Source: Paragemmobacter straminiformis
GTDB taxonomy: Bacteria > Pseudomonadota > Alphaproteobacteria > Rhodobacterales > Rhodobacteraceae
DNA: 64,000 nucleotides
Assembly: GCF_014243445.1 (NCBI RefSeq)
Contig: NZ_JACLQD010000004.1
Location: 124,001-188,000, forward strand
Direction: 5' to 3'
Shown piece after piece: positions 4,774 through 26,382 of the stretch (position 1 is the first letter of the stretch; each line of letters begins with the position of its first letter). The position numbers were made by a program, and so were the translations under genes. The notes below the pieces were generated by a model. That model saw only the letters and a list, made by a program, of their open reading frames with translations. It was not told the origin of the DNA and made no database searches.

Positions 4774-6456
4774 TCAGCCGTCCAGCGCCGCGCCGAGGGT
4801 GGCGCTGAGGCGGTGGGCATCGGCGCGGGGCAGGGCAATGTAGGGCGCCGCCATGTCCTGCGCGAGGAGGCGCAAGCCGGCCTGCGGGCGGGTGGCGACG
4901 TCGATGACCAGCGCGGGCGTGCCGCTGGCGCGGATCTGGCGGGCGAGGCGTCGGGCCTCGTCCTCGGCCCGCGTGCGGTCGGCGCTGCCGTCGAGGGCGA
5001 TGTTGCCGCGCCCGTCGGTCAGGATGGCGATGGTCGGGGTCAATCCGCGCGCCTTGGCCTGTGCGGCCGTGGCAAGGGCGAGTTGCAGGGCCGATGCGAG
5101 CGGCGTGCCCCCGCCGCCCGGAACGCCCGCAAGGCGGCGTTTGGTCTGCACCAGCGAACGGGTCGGCGGCAGGATCAGTTCCGCTTCCGCCCCGCGAAAG
5201 GCCAGCAGCGCCACATGGTCGCGCCGCGCATAGGCCGCGGCGAGAAGCAGTTCGATCGCGCCTTTCGCCTCGGCCAGACGGGCGAAGGCGGCCGAACCCG
5301 AGGCATCGACGGCGAAAATCAGCACCCTGTCCGAGGTTTCGCGGAAGCGTTTCAGCCGGATGTCCGACGCGCGGACCAGAAGTGCCGCATCGGGGCGCGG
5401 GGTCTGGGCGCGGCGCAGGGGTTGCCAGGGTGCCGCCGCGCGCAATGTGGCGACAAGATCGATGCGCGCGCCCTGCGCCAGTCGGCCCGGGCGCGAGGGC
5501 AGCGGGCGGCCACGGCGGTTGCCGGCCTGCTCGGCGCCCGTGCCGTTGGCGGATTTCGCGGCGCGGGCGTTACGGCCGCTCGCCAGGGCTTGCAACAGGT
5601 CGGGTGGCAGGGCGGCGAGTGCGGCTTCGACCAGCATCTCGGAGGGGATCGTCATGCTGTCGCTTTCCGCCTCGGCCTCGGGGCGGTCTGCCGGATCGTC
5701 GGGCGGGGGGGGCGCGTCCTGGGTTGTGTCTTGCGCCTCGGGCATCGGGGTGGCGCGGTGGGCGTAGACGAGTTCGGCGGCGGCGACCAGATCGGCGTCG
5801 GCCACGGTGTCGCGTCCTTGCCATGCCGCGTGGGCGCGGGCGGCGGTGGCGGCAAGAAGCGGTGCGCGCAGCGAGGCGATGCCCAGTTCGGCTGCGGCGC
5901 GGGTCAGGTCGGCCAGTGCCGTTTCGGGCAGGGCGACGCGCGGCAAGGCGGCGCGGGCTGCGGCCAGACGGTCAGGATCGGGCGCGGGGTCGGTCACGTC
6001 GGACCATATCGCGCCGGACAGGTCGAGGAAGAGGGCAAGACGGTCGGCCAGTGCGGGTGGCAGGGATTCGTCGGCCTCGGCCCCTTCGTCGAGGGCGACG
6101 AGCGCATGTGAAGCGCCATCGAGCGCCGAGGCAAGGCGCGCGGCAAGGCCGGCAGGGCAGCGTTCGGCCATGGCCAGCACAAGGGCGGCGGGGGCGGACA
6201 AAAGGCCCTTGGTCGTGACCGGATGGCCGGTCGCAAGGGTCGCGGCAAGGTCGAGCCCGCCGTAGAGCGCATCGTCGGCCACGGTCGGGTGCAGGCGTTT
6301 CAGCGGCAGGGGCAGGCTTGCCAGACTTCCCGTCACCAGATCGCGCACCGGGCCCGAGCGGGCGCGCAGCCACAGCCCGCCCAATCCGGCAGGATCAATG
6401 GCCAGAAGCGCCAGCGCGGTTTCCAGCCGCGCCCAAGGGGCGGGGGCATCGGTCAG
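4774..6456 (-). CDS. bchD: Magnesium chelatase subunit BchD
   Basis: The D subunit of the Mg-chelatase that inserts Mg into protoporphyrin IX with BchI and BchH. Visible parts are an N-terminal degenerate AAA-like domain, a Pro/Asp/Glu-rich linker near residues 230-260 (for example QDAPPPPDDPAD), and a C-terminal von Willebrand A domain with the MIDAS motif DASGSA plus GGGGTPL and LTDGRGN. Homology begins exactly at codon CTG 6456 (then TDAPAPWARLE), giving 560 residues, the usual family length. No ATG, GTG or TTG is in frame there, so a CTG start coupled to the bchI stop is proposed. The next in-frame GTG would remove about 35 conserved residues. Confidence 0.93.
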   Translation of the reverse strand: MTDAPAPWARLETALALLAIDPAGLGGLWLRARSGPVRDLVTGSLASLPLPLKRLHPTVADDALYGGLDLAATLATGHPVTTKGLLSAPAALVLAMAERCPAGLAARLASALDGASHALVALDEGAEADESLPPALADRLALFLDLSGAIWSDVTDPAPDPDRLAAARAALPRVALPETALADLTRAAAELGIASLRAPLLAATAARAHAAWQGRDTVADADLVAAAELVYAHRATPMPEAQDTTQDAPPPPDDPADRPEAEAESDSMTIPSEMLVEAALAALPPDLLQALASGRNARAAKSANGTGAEQAGNRRGRPLPSRPGRLAQGARIDLVATLRAAAPWQPLRRAQTPRPDAALLVRASDIRLKRFRETSDRVLIFAVDASGSAAFARLAEAKGAIELLLAAAYARRDHVALLAFRGAEAELILPPTRSLVQTKRRLAGVPGGGGTPLASALQLALATAAQAKARGLTPTIAILTDGRGNIALDGSADRTRAEDEARRLARQIRASGTPALVIDVATRPQAGLRLLAQDMAAPYIALPRADAHRLSATLGAALDG

Positions 6457-7457
6457 GGCAGCACCTCGGAAACGGCGCGGATCACGCGGGCGGTCGAGCC
6501 TGCCTCGTCCAGCGGGTCGCGGCGCAGGCGGTGCGACAGCGACATGGGGGCCACGGCTTTCAGATGGATGCGACCCACGGCATCGTCGCCTTCGAAGGCG
6601 GCAAGGGCGCGGGCGGCGCGCAGAAGCGTCAGCTCGCCCCGCAGCCCGTCCGAGCCGATGGCGATGCACAGGGCGGCGCAATCGTGCAGCACGGTGTTGG
6701 GCGTATGCAGCGCGGGCAGGCTGGCGCGGGCGGCGAGAATCCGGTCGCGCAGGGCGGCATCCTGCGGGCGCCATGTCTCGATGAAGGCGCCGTAGTTCGT
6801 TTCGTAGGCATCGCGGCGGCGGATCACCTCGACCCGCGTTTCGATGTCGCGGGGCGAGGTTACCTCGACCGACAGGCCGAAACGGTCGAGGAGCTGCGGG
6901 CGAAGCTCGCCTTCCTCGGGGTTGCCCGATCCGACGAGGACGAAACGCGCCGGGTGGCGGATCGACAGGCCCTCGCGTTCGACCACGTTCTCGCCGGACT
7001 GCGCCACGTCGAGGAGCAGGTCGACGATATGGTCTTCGAGCAGGTTCACCTCGTCGATGTAGAGGTAGCCGCGGTTGGCACGGGCCAGAAGGCCAGGCTC
7101 GAACGCCTTTTCGCCGCGTGTCAGGGCGCGTTCAATGTCGAGCGCCCCGACGACGCGGTCTTCGGTCACGCCAAGCGGCAGGTCGATGACGGGGGTGGGT
7201 TTTGTCACCAGCCTGCCGGTGGCCCCCTGCGCCCAATCGGGCACCATCTCGGCGCGGGGCGAGTTGACGGGGCAGCCCTCGATGGCCTCGATTTCCGGCA
7301 GAAGTGCGGCTAGGGCGCGGACGGCGGTGGATTTGCCGGTGCCTCGGTCGCCAAAGACCAGAACGCCGCCGATGGCCGGATCGACCGCCGTCAGGATCAT
7401 GGCCTGCTTCATGGCCTCTTGGCCGACGATGGCAGAGAAGGGGAAGGGCTGTTTCAT
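6453..7457 (-). CDS. bchI: Magnesium chelatase ATPase subunit BchI
   Basis: A 334-residue AAA+ ATPase that drives Mg insertion into protoporphyrin IX with BchD and BchH. Walker A is GDRGTGKS (residues about 36-43), Walker B is YLYIDEVNLL (about 131-140), and the sensor region VLVGSGNPEEGELRPQLLDR is intact. ATG 7457 overlaps the crtA stop as ATGA, and its own stop overlaps the bchD start, so crtA, bchI and bchD look translationally coupled. Length and motifs match Rhodobacter BchI. Confidence 0.97.
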   Translation of the reverse strand: MKQPFPFSAIVGQEAMKQAMILTAVDPAIGGVLVFGDRGTGKSTAVRALAALLPEIEAIEGCPVNSPRAEMVPDWAQGATGRLVTKPTPVIDLPLGVTEDRVVGALDIERALTRGEKAFEPGLLARANRGYLYIDEVNLLEDHIVDLLLDVAQSGENVVEREGLSIRHPARFVLVGSGNPEEGELRPQLLDRFGLSVEVTSPRDIETRVEVIRRRDAYETNYGAFIETWRPQDAALRDRILAARASLPALHTPNTVLHDCAALCIAIGSDGLRGELTLLRAARALAAFEGDDAVGRIHLKAVAPMSLSHRLRRDPLDEAGSTARVIRAVSEVLP

Positions 7458-8284
7458 CTTGCGCGTCCGTTCGACAGGATTTTCTGCGAAAATCCCTCAG
7501 GGCGAATTTTCTGCGAAAATTCGGGCGTGGCGGTTGGGTGATCCTTCGCAGAAGGATCGTCTGCGCGATTTTTCGCAGAAAAATCGAGGCCGGCGATCGG
7601 GTCGCCGCCGTTCCACTGGCCGACGCTGCCGCGCAGGCGGAAGCGGGCGTATAGCTCTTCGTCGAACCAGTTGCCCGCGCGCACAGCTGCGATGGCGCGG
7701 CCATGCGGGCCGTCGCCTCGGGCAAAGCGTGCCATGCTGGCGGCATCGGGCCAGATGGAAAAGGTGACCTGATGCAGCAGCGGCACTTCGCCGATGCCGA
7801 TCTTGAAGGCGACGTTCGGGTCACTGCCGATCATCGCCGAGATCGACGGCACCCGTTGCCAGAAGCGCAGCGCCCGCGCGGGTTTCACCGTGGCCCGGGT
7901 CAGGGCGGCCAAGGGGCCGTCTGCGGACTCGGGCGGGCTGTCGGGCAGGAACGGGTTGACACCCGACCATGCGCCGCGCGCCGAAATCGGGTCGAGGAAT
8001 ACCGTCCAGCTTTCGCGCGCGCGCCTGCGCCAGCGTTGCCAGACGGGCCCCGAAGCGGTGCGGTTGCGGGCGGTGTCTTCGTCCGGCCAGACGGCAAGGA
8101 TGGCCCAGACGTCCCAATTGGGGCGGGGGGTGAACCCCTCGCCCGTGCCAGAGCCGCAGAGCTTCCAGAACAGCGCCCGTGATTCGGCCCGCATGGCGAA
8201 GCGGGCTGTCGCCATTTGCCCGATGATCCAAAGGCGGTTCATCGGTCCGTCGAAGCGGAACAGGCTTAGGCTGACGGTGGTAAT
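7454..8284 (-). CDS. crtA: Spheroidene monooxygenase CrtA with repeat-derived C-terminus
   Basis: CrtA oxidises spheroidene to spheroidenone under oxygen. The family core is clear: VSLSLFRF, FWKLCGSGTGEGFTPRP, VWAILAVWPDE and ARESWTVFLDP. VSLSLFRF lies upstream of the first ATG (8242). The best start is ATT 8284, preceded by AAGGGG seven bases away; no ATG, GTG or TTG is in frame nearby. The usual end near FRLRGSVGQWNGGDP is followed by about 40 extra residues encoded by four in-frame palindromes, with repeated FSAKN, PSAKD and FSQKI peptides. Despite this, the stop keeps a 4-base ATGA overlap with bchI. The product is certain; start and tail are unusual. Confidence 0.93.
   Translation of the reverse strand: MTTVSLSLFRFDGPMNRLWIIGQMATARFAMRAESRALFWKLCGSGTGEGFTPRPNWDVWAILAVWPDEDTARNRTASGPVWQRWRRRARESWTVFLDPISARGAWSGVNPFLPDSPPESADGPLAALTRATVKPARALRFWQRVPSISAMIGSDPNVAFKIGIGEVPLLHQVTFSIWPDAASMARFARGDGPHGRAIAAVRAGNWFDEELYARFRLRGSVGQWNGGDPIAGLDFSAKNRADDPSAKDHPTATPEFSQKIRPEGFSQKILSNGRAR
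7477..7586. repeat. Composite four-palindrome element inside the crtA 3' end
   Basis: Four perfect short palindromes lie at 7477-7495, 7504-7522, 7540-7558 and 7566-7586. Arms differ between units (GGATTTTC, GAATTTTC, GATCCTTC, CGATTTTTC) but each arm is matched exactly by its partner. The three-base centres are TGC, TGC, GCA, GCA, so the block as a whole also has dyad symmetry. Centre-to-centre spacings are 27, 36 and 27 bp, all multiples of three, and the crtA frame stays open throughout. A second copy with spacings 27, 35 and 28 lies at 26273-26382. Confidence 0.9.
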
Positions 8285-8318
8285 GGCAAGACCCCTTGGC
8301 GCAAAGGCTTGGCGAAAG

Positions 8319-18244: not shown

Positions 18245-19809
18245 CCGCCGAAACCCGCTATGATCTGGCCGACCAGACTCCGGTGACCGAAGGGATCGCC
18301 GGGACTGCCGCGCCGGATTTGGCGGGAGCCACGGTCGACGGCCTTGGCTGCCATTCGGGCAGCACGATGAAGGAAGCGGCGCGGGCGGCGGGCAATTCGG
18401 AACTGCTCGACCAGTTTGCCGCCGACTATCCGCAAGGCCCGCATGACAAGCCGCAATCCATGTGCCCCGCCTTCGGCTCGCTTCGGGTGGGCCTGCGGAT
18501 GCGGCGGGTGGCAACGGTGCTGTCCGGTTCGGCCTGCTGCGTCTACGGGCTGACCTTCGTGTCGCATTTCTACGGGGCGCGACGGTCGGTGGGCTATGTG
18601 CCTTTCAACTCGGAAACCCTTGTGACGGGCAAGCTGTTCGAGGACATCCGCGAGGCCGTTCACGACCTGGCCGATCCCGAACGCTATGACGCGGTGGTCG
18701 TGACCAATCTGTGTGTGCCGACGGCATCGGGTGTGCCGCTGAAACTGCTGCCGCGGGAAATCAACGGCGTGCGCATCGTCGGCATCGACGTGCCGGGCTT
18801 CGGTGTGCCGACCCATGCCGAGGCCAAGGACGTGCTGGCAGGCGCCATGCTCAACTATGCCCGCCGCGAGATCGAGGCCGGCCCCGTGCAGGCCCCCGAA
18901 CGCGGGCGGTCCGACCGCCCCGCCGTGGCCCTGCTGGGCGAGATGTTCCCCGCCGACCCGATGATGATCGGCGCGATGCTGGCCCCGATGGGTCTGGCCG
19001 CCGGCCCTGTCGTGCCCTGCCGCGAATGGCGCGAGCTTTATGCCGCGCTCGATTGTGGCGTGGTCGCGGCGATCCATCCGTTCTACACCGCCGCCATCCG
19101 CGAGTTTCAGGCCGCAGGCCGCAAGATCGTGGGTTCGGCCCCCGTCGGCCATGATGGCACGATGGATTGGCTGGCCGCGATCGGTGACGCCTATGGCGTG
19201 AACCCCGCCCAGATTGCCGCCGCGCAGAACGCCTTTGGCCCCGCGATCAAGTCGGCGCTGGCCGCCAACCCGATCAAGGGGCGGATCACGCTGTCCGGCT
19301 ATGAGGGGTCGGAACTTCTGGTCGCCCGCCTGCTGATCGAAAGCGGGGCGGATGTGGCCTATGTCGGCACCGCCTGCGCCAAGAACGACTGGTCCGAAGC
19401 CGACCGTGCCTGGCTCGAGGCCAAGGGCGTGGCCGTGAAATACCGCGCCTCGCTGGAAGATGACTGCGCCGCGATGGAGGCTTTCCGTCCCGACCTCGCC
19501 ATCGGCACGACCCCGGTCGTGCAGAAGGCGAAAGAGCTGGCCATTCCGGGGCTTTACTTCACCAACCTGATTTCCGCGCGGCCCCTGATGGGTCCGGCGG
19601 GGGCGGGGTCTTTGGGGCAGGTGGTCAATGCCGCCATCGCCAACAAGGCCCGTATGGACGGGATGAAGGACTTTTTCGAAGGCGTCGGCACCGGCGACAC
19701 CTCGGGCATCTGGGAGGGCGCGCCGAACCTGCGCCCCGATTTCCGCGCCACGCACCAGAAGAAACTCGACAAGGCCGCCAAGGCCGCCAAGGCGGAGGAG
19801 ATGATATGA
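18241..19809 (+). CDS. bchY: Chlorophyllide a reductase subunit BchY
   Basis: A 522-residue NifD-like subunit of chlorophyllide oxidoreductase that carries Fe-S ligands and substrate-site residues with BchZ. Cys motifs [24 protein letters not shown] and [12 protein letters not shown] are visible in the first 110 residues. The C-terminus is Lys/Ala-rich ([15 protein letters not shown]). It overlaps the mini-ORF by 4 bases. The gap to bchZ (49 bp) contains a degenerate TTC-GAA palindrome. Confidence 0.96.
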
Positions 19810-19820
19810 TCCTGCGCCAA

Positions 19821-19839
19821 GACTTTTCGCTGAAAAATC
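19821..19839. repeat. Degenerate TTC-N3-GAA palindrome between bchY and bchZ
   Basis: GACTTTTC-GCT-GAAAAATC, one mismatch in the arms and a GCT centre instead of TGC or GCA. It resembles one unit of the four-palindrome elements at 7477 and 26273. It sits 12 bp after the bchY stop and 20 bp before bchZ. Confidence 0.6.
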
Positions 19840-19858
19840 ATCGGACCGGGGGGCATTC

Positions 19859-21331
19859 ATGCTGATCCAGGACCATGATCGGGCAGGCGGTTACTGGGGG
19901 GCGGTTTACGCCTTCTGCGCCGTCAAGGGCCTGCAAGTCGTGATCGACGGTCCCGTGGGCTGCGAGAACCTGCCCGTCACGAGCGTTCTGCACTACACCG
20001 ATGCGCTGCCCCCGCACGAGCTGCCCATCGTCGTCACCGGTCTGGGCGAGGACGAGATGACCTCGGGCACCGAGGCATCGATGGCGCGGGCGTGGAAGAC
20101 GCTCGATCCGGCGCTGCCCGCCGTGGTGGTGACAGGGTCGATTTCCGAGATGATCGGCGGCGGTGTGACGCCGCAAGGCACCAACATCCAGCGGTTCCTG
20201 CCGCGCACCATCGACGAAGACCAGTGGCAGGCCGCCGACCGCGCGATGACGTGGATCTTTACCGAATTCGGCCAGACCAAGGGCCGGATGCCGGTCGAGA
20301 AGAAGCGCGAAGCGGGTGACAAGCCGCGCGTGAACATCCTCGGGCCGATGTATGGCGTGTTCAACATGGCCTCGGACCTGCACGAGATCCGCCGTCTGGT
20401 CGAAGGGATCGGGGCCGAGGTCAACATGGTCATGCCGCTTGGCGCGCATCTGGCCGAGATGCGCAACCTTGTGAATGCCGACGTCAATATCGTGATGTAC
20501 CGCGAGTTCGGCCGCGGTCTCGCCCAGGTTCTGGGCAAGCCCTATCTGCAAGCGCCGATCGGGCTGGATTCGACGACCAAGTTCCTGCGCAAGCTGGGCG
20601 AGTTGCTGGGGCTGGACCCCGAGCCGTTCATCGCGCGCGAAAAGCATTCGACGCTGAAGCCGGTCTGGGATTTGTGGCGTTCGGTCACGCAGGACTTCTT
20701 CGGCACGGCCAGCTTTGCCGTGGTTGCGAACGAAACCTACGCCCGCGGTATCCGGCACTATCTGGAAACCGACCTTGGCCTGCCTTGCGCTTTCGCCGTC
20801 GCGCGGATGGCGGGGCAGAAGACCAACAACGAACAGGTGCGCGCGTTGATGCGGCAGCACCGTCCCCTCGTTGTCATGGGGTCGATCAACGAAAAGATGT
20901 ATCTGGCCGAGTTGAAGGCCGGACACGGGCCCGCGCCGCATTTCATCGCGGCAAGCTTTCCCGGTGCCGCCATCCGTCGCCACACCGGCACGCCCTTCAT
21001 GGGCTACGCCGGCTGCGTCTGGATGCTGCAAGAGGTGTGCAACGGCCTGTTCGAGGCGCTGTTCCACATCCTGCCGCTCGGCACCGAGATGGACAGCGCG
21101 GCCCATACCCCCACAACCCTGCGCCGCGATTTCCCCTGGGATGCCGACGCGCAGGCCGAGCTTGACCGGATCGTGTCGGAACACCCGATCCTGACCCGCA
21201 TTTCCGCCGCCCGCACGCTGCGGGATGCGGCCGAAAAGTCGGCCCTGGACCAAGGCGCGGAACGCGTCGTCCGGGAAACCGTCGAGGCCCTGCGCGGGCC
21301 GCAACAGTCACCAAAGGGAGCACCAGCATGA
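19859..21331 (+). CDS. bchZ: Chlorophyllide a reductase subunit BchZ
   Basis: A 490-residue NifK-like subunit that completes the BchXYZ nitrogenase-like reductase. The N-terminal Cys motif [17 protein letters not shown] and the segment [20 protein letters not shown] are typical. ATG 19859 follows GGGGGGC. The stop overlaps pufQ as ATGA, physically tying pigment synthesis to the puf operon as in Rhodobacter. Confidence 0.96.
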
Positions 21332-26272: not shown

Positions 26273-26382
26273 AAATTCTTCTGCGAAGAATTTCCGCAAC
26301 GATTTTTCTGCGAAAAATCGGGACAGGCCTGTCCTGAATTTTCGCAGAAAATTCGTGTCGTCAGGATTTTCGCGTAAAATCC
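26273..26382. repeat. Composite four-palindrome element between dxs and the FAH gene
   Basis: Units lie at 26273-26293 (AAATTCTTC arms), 26300-26320 (CGATTTTTC), 26336-26354 (GAATTTTC) and 26364-26382 (GGATTTT, decayed centre CGCGT). Centres are TGC, TGC, GCA and a GCA-like variant. Spacings of 27, 35 and 28 bp copy the layout at 7477-7586. The middle gap holds a separate perfect 14-bp palindrome, GGACAGGCCTGTCC (26321-26334). The block fills exactly the space between two convergent stop codons and may serve as a two-way terminator. Confidence 0.9.

Follow-up and report, generated by a model that had tools for sequence, protein, structure and literature searches.

REP-like palindromic units at the crtA-bchI joint of Paragemmobacter straminiformis: bridging reading frames as a probable source of a CrtA tail

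Introduction

How does a palindromic DNA repeat come to be read as the end of a protein while the gene that carries it still overlaps the next gene of its operon? The question is raised by the crtA-bchI joint in a stretch of 64,000 nucleotides from Paragemmobacter straminiformis (Rhodobacteraceae; NCBI RefSeq assembly GCF_014243445.1, contig NZ_JACLQD010000004.1, positions 124,001 to 188,000), which is referred to below as the window. An earlier, sequence-only reading of this joint suggested that a mobile palindromic element had been absorbed into crtA. Here, we compare the joint with those of relatives, describe the repeat family to which the element belongs, and weigh the ways in which the tail of CrtA may have arisen.

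The Four-Unit Composite and the CrtA Tail

The composite extends from 7477 to 7585 and consists of four units of 19 nt whose starts are spaced 27, 36, and 27 nt apart (Table 1). The crtA frame reads all four units as about 40 C-terminal residues of CrtA, and the crtA TGA stop shares 4 nt with the bchI ATG; on each of these points, the sequence-only reading is confirmed. It had also called the units perfect palindromes. This holds for the 8-bp arms of every unit but not for the 3-nt centre, TGC or GCA, which is asymmetric, so that each unit has a direction. The overlap with bchI was indeed kept, as had been stressed; it follows from the ATGA with which bchI begins and would be obtained in one of the three frames.

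The spheroidene monooxygenase family model matches residues 3–227 of the 277 residues of CrtA, and the repeat-derived tail therefore lies outside the family model. In a structure prediction from 24 rows, few of which reach the tail, residues 239–277 have a pLDDT below 50, and the tail is predicted to be disordered. At its other end, crtA has no evident ATG start; a TTG-started ORF runs from 8398, and the conserved part lies near 8287.

The sequence TTCTGCGAA occurs seven times in the window, as against a mean of 0.43 and a maximum of 2 in 100 shuffles. A second composite of the same family is placed between convergent genes, which we take to be dxs-like and fumarylacetoacetate-hydrolase-like.

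Table 1. Positions of units, composites, and reading frames in the window.
Feature	Position	Strand	Remarks
Unit H4	7477..7495	-	GGATTTTC-TGC-GAAAATCC on +; GFSQKI read on -
Unit H3	7504..7522	-	GAATTTTC-TGC-GAAAATTC on +; EFSQKI read on -
Unit H2	7540..7558	-	GATCCTTC-GCA-GAAGGATC on +; DPSAKD read on -
Unit H1	7567..7585	-	GATTTTTC-GCA-GAAAAATC on +; DFSAKN read on -; closest to crtA body
crtA CDS including repeat-derived tail	7454..8287	-	5' start uncertain
bchI	6453..7457	-	start overlaps crtA stop by 4 nt (ATGA)
bchY-bchZ bridging ORF (gene names presumed)	19806..19865	+	19 protein letters; one decayed unit, same frame
Second composite of the same repeat family	26273..26382 (approx.)		three exact cores and one altered (fourth) unit; core spacings 27, 35

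A Dispersed Repeat Family with a Patchy Distribution

The consensus of the unit is C-GAWTTTTC-TGC-GAAAAWTC. In the genome to which the window belongs (G000; other G numbers denote the genomes of relatives), the 13-mer TTTTCTGCGAAAA has 83 exact copies and its reversed control has none, while the bare 9-mer has 114 copies against 24 for the control. The tail is thus built from a dispersed palindromic repeat, as had been supposed; a genome-wide lack of further copies, which would have refuted the sequence-only reading, is not seen, since there are many. Copy numbers among the 19 genomes of the genus include 109 in G007, the 83 of G000, one each in G002, G008, G010, and G012, and none in G003. 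In a set of 394 Rhodobacteraceae genomes from 393 genera, the 19-mer GAWTTTTCTGCGAAAAWTC is present in 45 (44 genera); G143 has 54 copies, G408 30, G450 29, and G136 26. Taken across the genus and the 394 genomes of the family, these counts describe a unit that is patchy and not confined to one genus. No Rfam family matched in a search of the window, and no description of the unit was found in a literature search that covered few of the subscription journals.

As for the mobility ascribed to the element, the dispersal of the unit and an in-frame indel in CobF (see below) speak for it. No Y1 tyrosine transposase (PF01797), the kind of enzyme (RAYT) by which some REPs are mobilised, was found in G000. 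Across the 13 genomes G000–G012, of the 19 numbered G000–G018, the search for PF01797 gave one match, below the cut-off, in G008, a genome with one unit.

Of the 64 tandem pairs of units listed for the genus, 33 (counted by hand) have a spacing of 27 nt, as do all six of the pairs in G000. At loci L390, L391, L396, and L123, units form divergent pairs about 33 nt apart, which is the opposite of the usual arrangement; near the divergent pairs of G157, the ORFs of L391 are, by eye, ordinary-looking genes with no transposase among them. At L166, around 1250–1300, a long poly-C tract comes immediately after a unit downstream of a gene. A second recurrent sequence, the GC-rich dyad CCTTG-CCAAATACTC-GGGGGG, possibly a terminator, lies between convergent genes at L120, L129, L131, L134, L135, and other loci.

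Orientation, Placement, and Pairing of the Units

Units were oriented by their TGC centre, and stops were called by a simple codon-composition filter, independently of annotation. In G000, a coding-like stop lies within 60, 25, and 15 nt on the 5' side of 49, 37, and 36 of the 83 units, respectively, and on the other side of only 6, 3, and 2; a stem-extended measure gives 38 units with a 5'-side stop within 25 nt. The corresponding counts in G007, for 87 sites (60 stretches plus three other loci) of the 109 that exist, are 50, 41, and 32 on the 5' side and 15, 3, and 2 on the other. For 52 sites in six other genera, taken from the first-listed places with a looser filter, a stop lies within 25 nt on the 5' side of 32 and on the other side of 9, and the bias within 60 nt is weak (40 versus 28 of 52). 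A mixed set of 14 sites, partly overlapping these places and called with the looser filter, gave 7 versus 3 within 25 nt and 7 versus 6 within 60 nt. Stops on the other side in the other genera are found partly because facing pairs lie between convergent genes.

The base directly 5' of the stem is C in 92 percent of the units in G000, 79 percent in G007, and 87 percent in the other genera. The unit stems covary: the outermost variable pair is paired in 81 of 83, 86 of 87, and 60 of 61 units, where 43.4, 46.4, and 31.0 are expected from the make-up of the columns, and T-A and A-T are both common. The two pairs next to it vary too little to tell, and the conservation of the inner 13 bases proves nothing since they served as the search key. 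Of the 87 G007 units, 36 are located at a gene end that also has a unit in G000, as judged from one or both flanks and with some units sharing a partner; at these common gene ends, the bases adjoining the unit have largely diverged.

The crtA-bchI Joint in Relatives

The 19 genomes of the genus, G000 included, comprise 17 with a crtA match and two without; 16 joints are readable and one is cut by a contig. The gene is fused to the element in five of the 16 joints (G000, G013, G005, G014, and G012), and in another five the element is present together with a separate crtA stop (G007, G004, G001, G018, and G006). G011 holds a remnant, and G002, G008, and G010 are without the element. The joints of G016 and G009 represent an outside type, in which bchI itself starts at the ATGA of the crtA stop, and the start of the bridging ORF described next was, for this reason, perhaps once bchI's own. 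All five unfused element-bearing joints contain an ORF of 33–46 codons that spans the interval from the ATGA at the crtA stop to the ATGA at the bchI start, as in G007, where it reads MTHDFSAKNHVNDPSAKDHQTPHPEFSQKIRPTGFSQIILPAGRST*. In G002, the bridge has 15 codons and no palindromes; in G008 and G010 (L013 and L014), the element and a full bridge are both lacking, and a 22-nt gap precedes bchI.

Among 80 loci from named genomes, 53 show the 4-nt overlap of crtA and bchI, 26 differ or have a bchI start that could not be placed, and one is cut. CrtA ends in a tail with a median of 7 residues over these 80 loci; outside the genus, the tails are shorter and without units, the longest having 28 residues. 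The tail in the window does exceed the normal end of the protein, as first read. An equally long tail of non-repetitive sequence, which in all relatives would have refuted that reading, was seen in none of those examined, the nearest being the 38-residue tail of G012, which looks like a degraded copy of the element.

In the alignment of the joints, the window and G013 share a gap of 26 columns that removes the crtA stop, and the gaps in G005, G014, and G012 are different from it. A tree of CrtA plus BchI requires three changes to account for the fused joints, and well-supported branches force two of them; the placement of G014 is poorly supported. Judged from the alignment and the tree, indels fused crtA to the bridging ORF at least twice and probably three times. 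Since five relatives retain the crtA stop and the gap that removes it is a shared one, crtA was fused to an element that already lay between the two genes, and the tail in the window is most readily understood as crtA joined to the bridging ORF.

The Reading Frame of the Joints

The frame was examined in nine element-bearing joints, five unfused and four fused, with the degraded G012 excluded. Frame 0 is free of internal stops throughout, while frame 1 is interrupted in six of the nine and frame 2 in seven. Over the same joints, pN/pS is 0.60 in frame 0 and 0.99 and 1.10 in the others; the rows of this test are related, so that it gives support rather than proof. A count of synonymous and nonsynonymous changes on single units had too small a sample for use. 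Measured from the first unit, the joints are 43, 48, 47, 45, 43, 39, 30, and 30 codons long, a list that omits G004 because its first unit is unrecognisable. These six distinct lengths are all multiples of three, so that the frame has survived at least five changes of length. The unit variants themselves have no stop in any of the six frames, and an open frame therefore arises easily.

Other Units Read in Frame and Frame Controls

A second bridging ORF in the window connects two genes that we take to be bchY and bchZ (Table 1). Its start overlaps the bchY stop (ATGA), and its stop overlaps the bchZ start (ATGCTGA). The bridges at the same place in relatives have four units in G005 and three in G014. 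Between a further gene pair of G000, presumably pdxJ and acpS, lies the bridge VSVGFSAKNPAGEFSAKIRATDSGAEFSQKIRCERFSQKIFGLRA*, with an NTGA-type overlap with the downstream gene. Units are read in frame within other genes as well, a point in favour of the sequence-only reading. In CobF (TIGR02434), EFSQKI is an in-frame indel in G000, is altered in G007 and G003, and is absent from the 11 other aligned sequences. In DnaE2, recognised with an error-prone polymerase model, DFSAKN or DFSTKN is found near the end in G000, G013, G007, and G011, and the protein ends without a unit at the 13 other loci examined. At 17 loci of the genus (L229–L245), the end of DnaE2 coincides roughly with that of the G000 match, which is some 110 residues short of the full model.

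Frame 0 is used at all five places, namely crtA-bchI, bchY-bchZ, pdxJ-acpS, CobF, and DnaE2; were the frames free, the chance of one common frame at five loci would be, as a rough figure, (1/3)^4. As a control, all loci examined were scanned for unit-bearing ORFs whose two ends each overlap a coding-like gene; among the overlaps, only such two-sided ones were used. There are 13 such doubly coupled joints in frame 0 (11 of up to 50 codons, from about 8 gene pairs), 6 in frame 1 (2 of up to 50 codons), and 4 in frame 2 (3). Two loci enter in two frames each, and several of the frame-0 joints represent the same gene pair in different species. None of ten other co-directional G000 loci with units is doubly coupled, gene starts being those of a crude caller. 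From these ten loci and the bridges in other frames, it follows that bridging is no general rule of the repeat family. Single-unit bridges may partly be due to chance, because doubly coupled ORFs also occur in other frames, and the case rests on the multi-unit joints. Thus, the frame control supports the crtA-bchI case, and the scan of doubly coupled ORFs weakens a general claim.

Five further candidates in frame 0 are two-sided (L185, L257, L275, L346, and L369) and are kept outside the main claim because single-unit cases exist in other frames. Pfam assigns families to both flanks at L185, L257, and L275. At L346, only the downstream flank has one (the upstream flank gave no hit), and so does the downstream flank of L369, where that flank alone was scanned. 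The single-unit ORF of L185 lies between FemAB-like and Pterin_4a genes and that of L257 between DUF498 and ABC transporter genes; at L275, a two-sided coupled ORF over a single unit lies between a glutamine synthetase gene and a HigB-like gene.

A scan for units within coding sequence was run at lowered thresholds, since strict ones miss crtA. Beyond crtA, CobF, and DnaE2, it gave weak candidates at L006, L116, L167, and L175, of which L116 and L175 are in frame 1. The antisense frame of L175 was rejected, as the unit follows the stop codon of a long ORF on the plus strand; L116 and L167 were dropped on low score alone. Of the units inside ORFs of the crude caller, most precede a start or belong to another frame.

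Comparison with Known Systems

The NTGA overlap that characterises the mycobacterial MIRUs is found in all five unfused crtA-bchI joints and at pdxJ-acpS in G000, and the bchY-bchZ bridge has ATGCTGA instead. In MIRUs, so far as the available part of their description goes, a repeat at a start codon provides a small ORF that is coupled to the next gene at a -4 spacing, and expression is hardly disturbed (PMC12548453, a 2025 review). The likeness, which is drawn from that description, lies in a small element ORF that overlaps the start of the next gene. Unlike MIRUs, the bridges consist of hairpin units of a REP-like family, have overlaps at both ends, and have, it appears, later been fused to the upstream gene; the hosts are also unrelated, those of MIRUs being mycobacteria and the relatives considered here Rhodobacteraceae (PMC12548453).

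The unit has what is general to REPs, being a short dispersed palindrome near 3' ends and often in pairs of opposite orientation. In these features, in its 8-bp stem, in its location between convergent or co-directional genes, in its presence within some genes, DnaE2 genes among them, and in having, within the genomes searched, no dedicated transposase, it resembles the CGTC REPs of alpha-proteobacteria as they are presented in the available part of the source (PMC3733652). It differs from them in having no CGTC/TGTC or GTAG tag, in its 3-nt centre, in its nearly fixed sequence, and in its association with bridging ORFs in coupled operons, of which the same part of that account makes no mention (PMC3733652). 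CGTC, TGTC, or GTAG stands beside the 8-bp stem, on either side, in 0 of 83 units in G000, 0 of 87 in G007, and 2 of 61 in other genera; CCTC does so in 2, 1, and 2, and the CCA tail of CGTC-type REPs is seen in 1 of 83, 1 of 87, and 0 of 61. The outer stem pair is G-C in 81 of 83, 82 of 87, and 60 of 61 units, whereas CGTC-type REPs have A-T as first and second pairs.

Rickettsia palindromic elements, in the part of their description available, are likewise palindromic repeats read in frame within unrelated genes (PMC10969869). Whereas those elements are about 150 bp long and inserted inside ORFs (PMC10969869), the present unit has about 20 nt and is mostly non-coding, and at crtA an indel joined a downstream element to the gene. 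An in-frame indel, which may be a gain or a loss, is found at CobF, and no in-frame insertion of the Rickettsia type is found at crtA. The combination of a REP-type hairpin with a MIRU-type coupling ORF was found in no literature source within the partial coverage of our search.

A Proposal for the Origin of the Tail, and Alternatives

We propose, with moderate confidence, that REP-like hairpins of 3' ends are tolerated in coupled operons by way of translated, MIRU-like bridging ORFs, and that crtA was fused to such an ORF by indels. The unit is, on this view, an untagged, REP-like, oriented hairpin that is scattered through this genus and certain others of the family and commonly follows a stop codon directly. 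At coupled joints, composites of one to four units occupy a small ORF that leads from the NTGA at the upstream stop to the ATGA or ATGCTGA at the downstream start. The one shared frame would let ribosomes pass the insert, and coupled re-initiation would survive, as is described for mycobacterial MIRUs. In the lineage of the window, a shared deletion of about 26 nt would then have removed the crtA stop, and different indels would have acted in the other lineages. The tail of CrtA is most likely a tolerated by-product. The sequences themselves show the repeat family, its orientation and covariation, the bridging ORFs, the conserved frame, and the fusion; it is inferred that the bridges are translated, that selection acts on coupling, by what means the units spread, and what role the hairpin has. 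At gene ends, the unit is most likely an RNA-level signal because it has a direction, although so strict a sequence would also suit a protein-binding DNA site. Tentatively, and with more doubt than conviction, we suggest in addition that the FSAK/FSQK frame makes REP-like palindromes coupling-preserving inserts at NTGA overlaps, where they would turn a coupled pair into two genes with a bridging mini-ORF between them, and then raw material for C-terminal extension by repeated fusions that remove a stop.

It is unlikely, in our judgement, that the units act only as RNA hairpins, in 3'-end protection, in processing, or as an aid to termination, the open frames being a product of chance and of the stop-free unit. 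Such a role agrees with the strand-specific placement after stops, with two-sided changes that keep the pairing, with the similar placement of REPs in general, according to the available part of PMC3733652, and with the occurrence of some doubly coupled ORFs in other frames. Against it stand the double overlaps at three gene pairs with multi-unit composites in one frame, the six distinct crtA-bchI lengths (G004 uncounted) that are all multiples of three, and the finding that frame 0 alone is stop-free in nine of nine joints and has the lowest pN/pS; moreover, the single hairpin is weak, one isolated unit folding as RNA at only -4.1 kcal/mol.

A symmetric dimer site should not be strongly oriented, as the unit is by its asymmetric centre and by the C on one side only, and we regard as decidedly improbable the idea that the unit is the DNA site of a dimeric protein, of the nucleoid, roadblock, or partition type, with its placement following transcription. 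What recommends it is that the sequence itself is nearly fixed beyond the needs of pairing (with the inner 13 bases being the search key), that the same 19-mer occurs in other genera, that five genomes of the genus have only 0–1 copies, as if a partner had come and gone, and that a 27-nt spacing recurs in 33 of the 64 tandem pairs.

Absorption by insertion, as first envisaged, would have the element transposed straight into the crtA coding sequence in the manner of the Rickettsia palindromic elements, with the tail as the insert. The repeat is dispersed, and inside CobF of G000 a single unit is an in-frame indel, yet five relatives carry the element after an intact crtA stop, which largely refutes direct insertion for crtA; with the stop-removing gap common to the window and G013 and the fused joints scattered on the tree, we hold it to be very improbable. 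Finally, it is scarcely credible that the repeat-derived tail has gained a function in CrtA: PEFSQKIRP and related motifs recur in four fused species, but unfused bridges hold the same motifs, the tail is predicted to be disordered (few rows cover it), and most relatives are without it.

Significance

The fusion of crtA with a bridging ORF, as proposed here, offers one traceable case that joins two known ideas, the gene-end hairpins of the REP type and the coupling ORFs of the MIRU type. Close relatives show the unfused, fused, decayed, and element-free states, and since all four are at hand, the entry of a repeat into coupled operons and the birth of protein tails become testable. The sharply defined hairpin, with its patchy distribution, might also reveal a partner protein.
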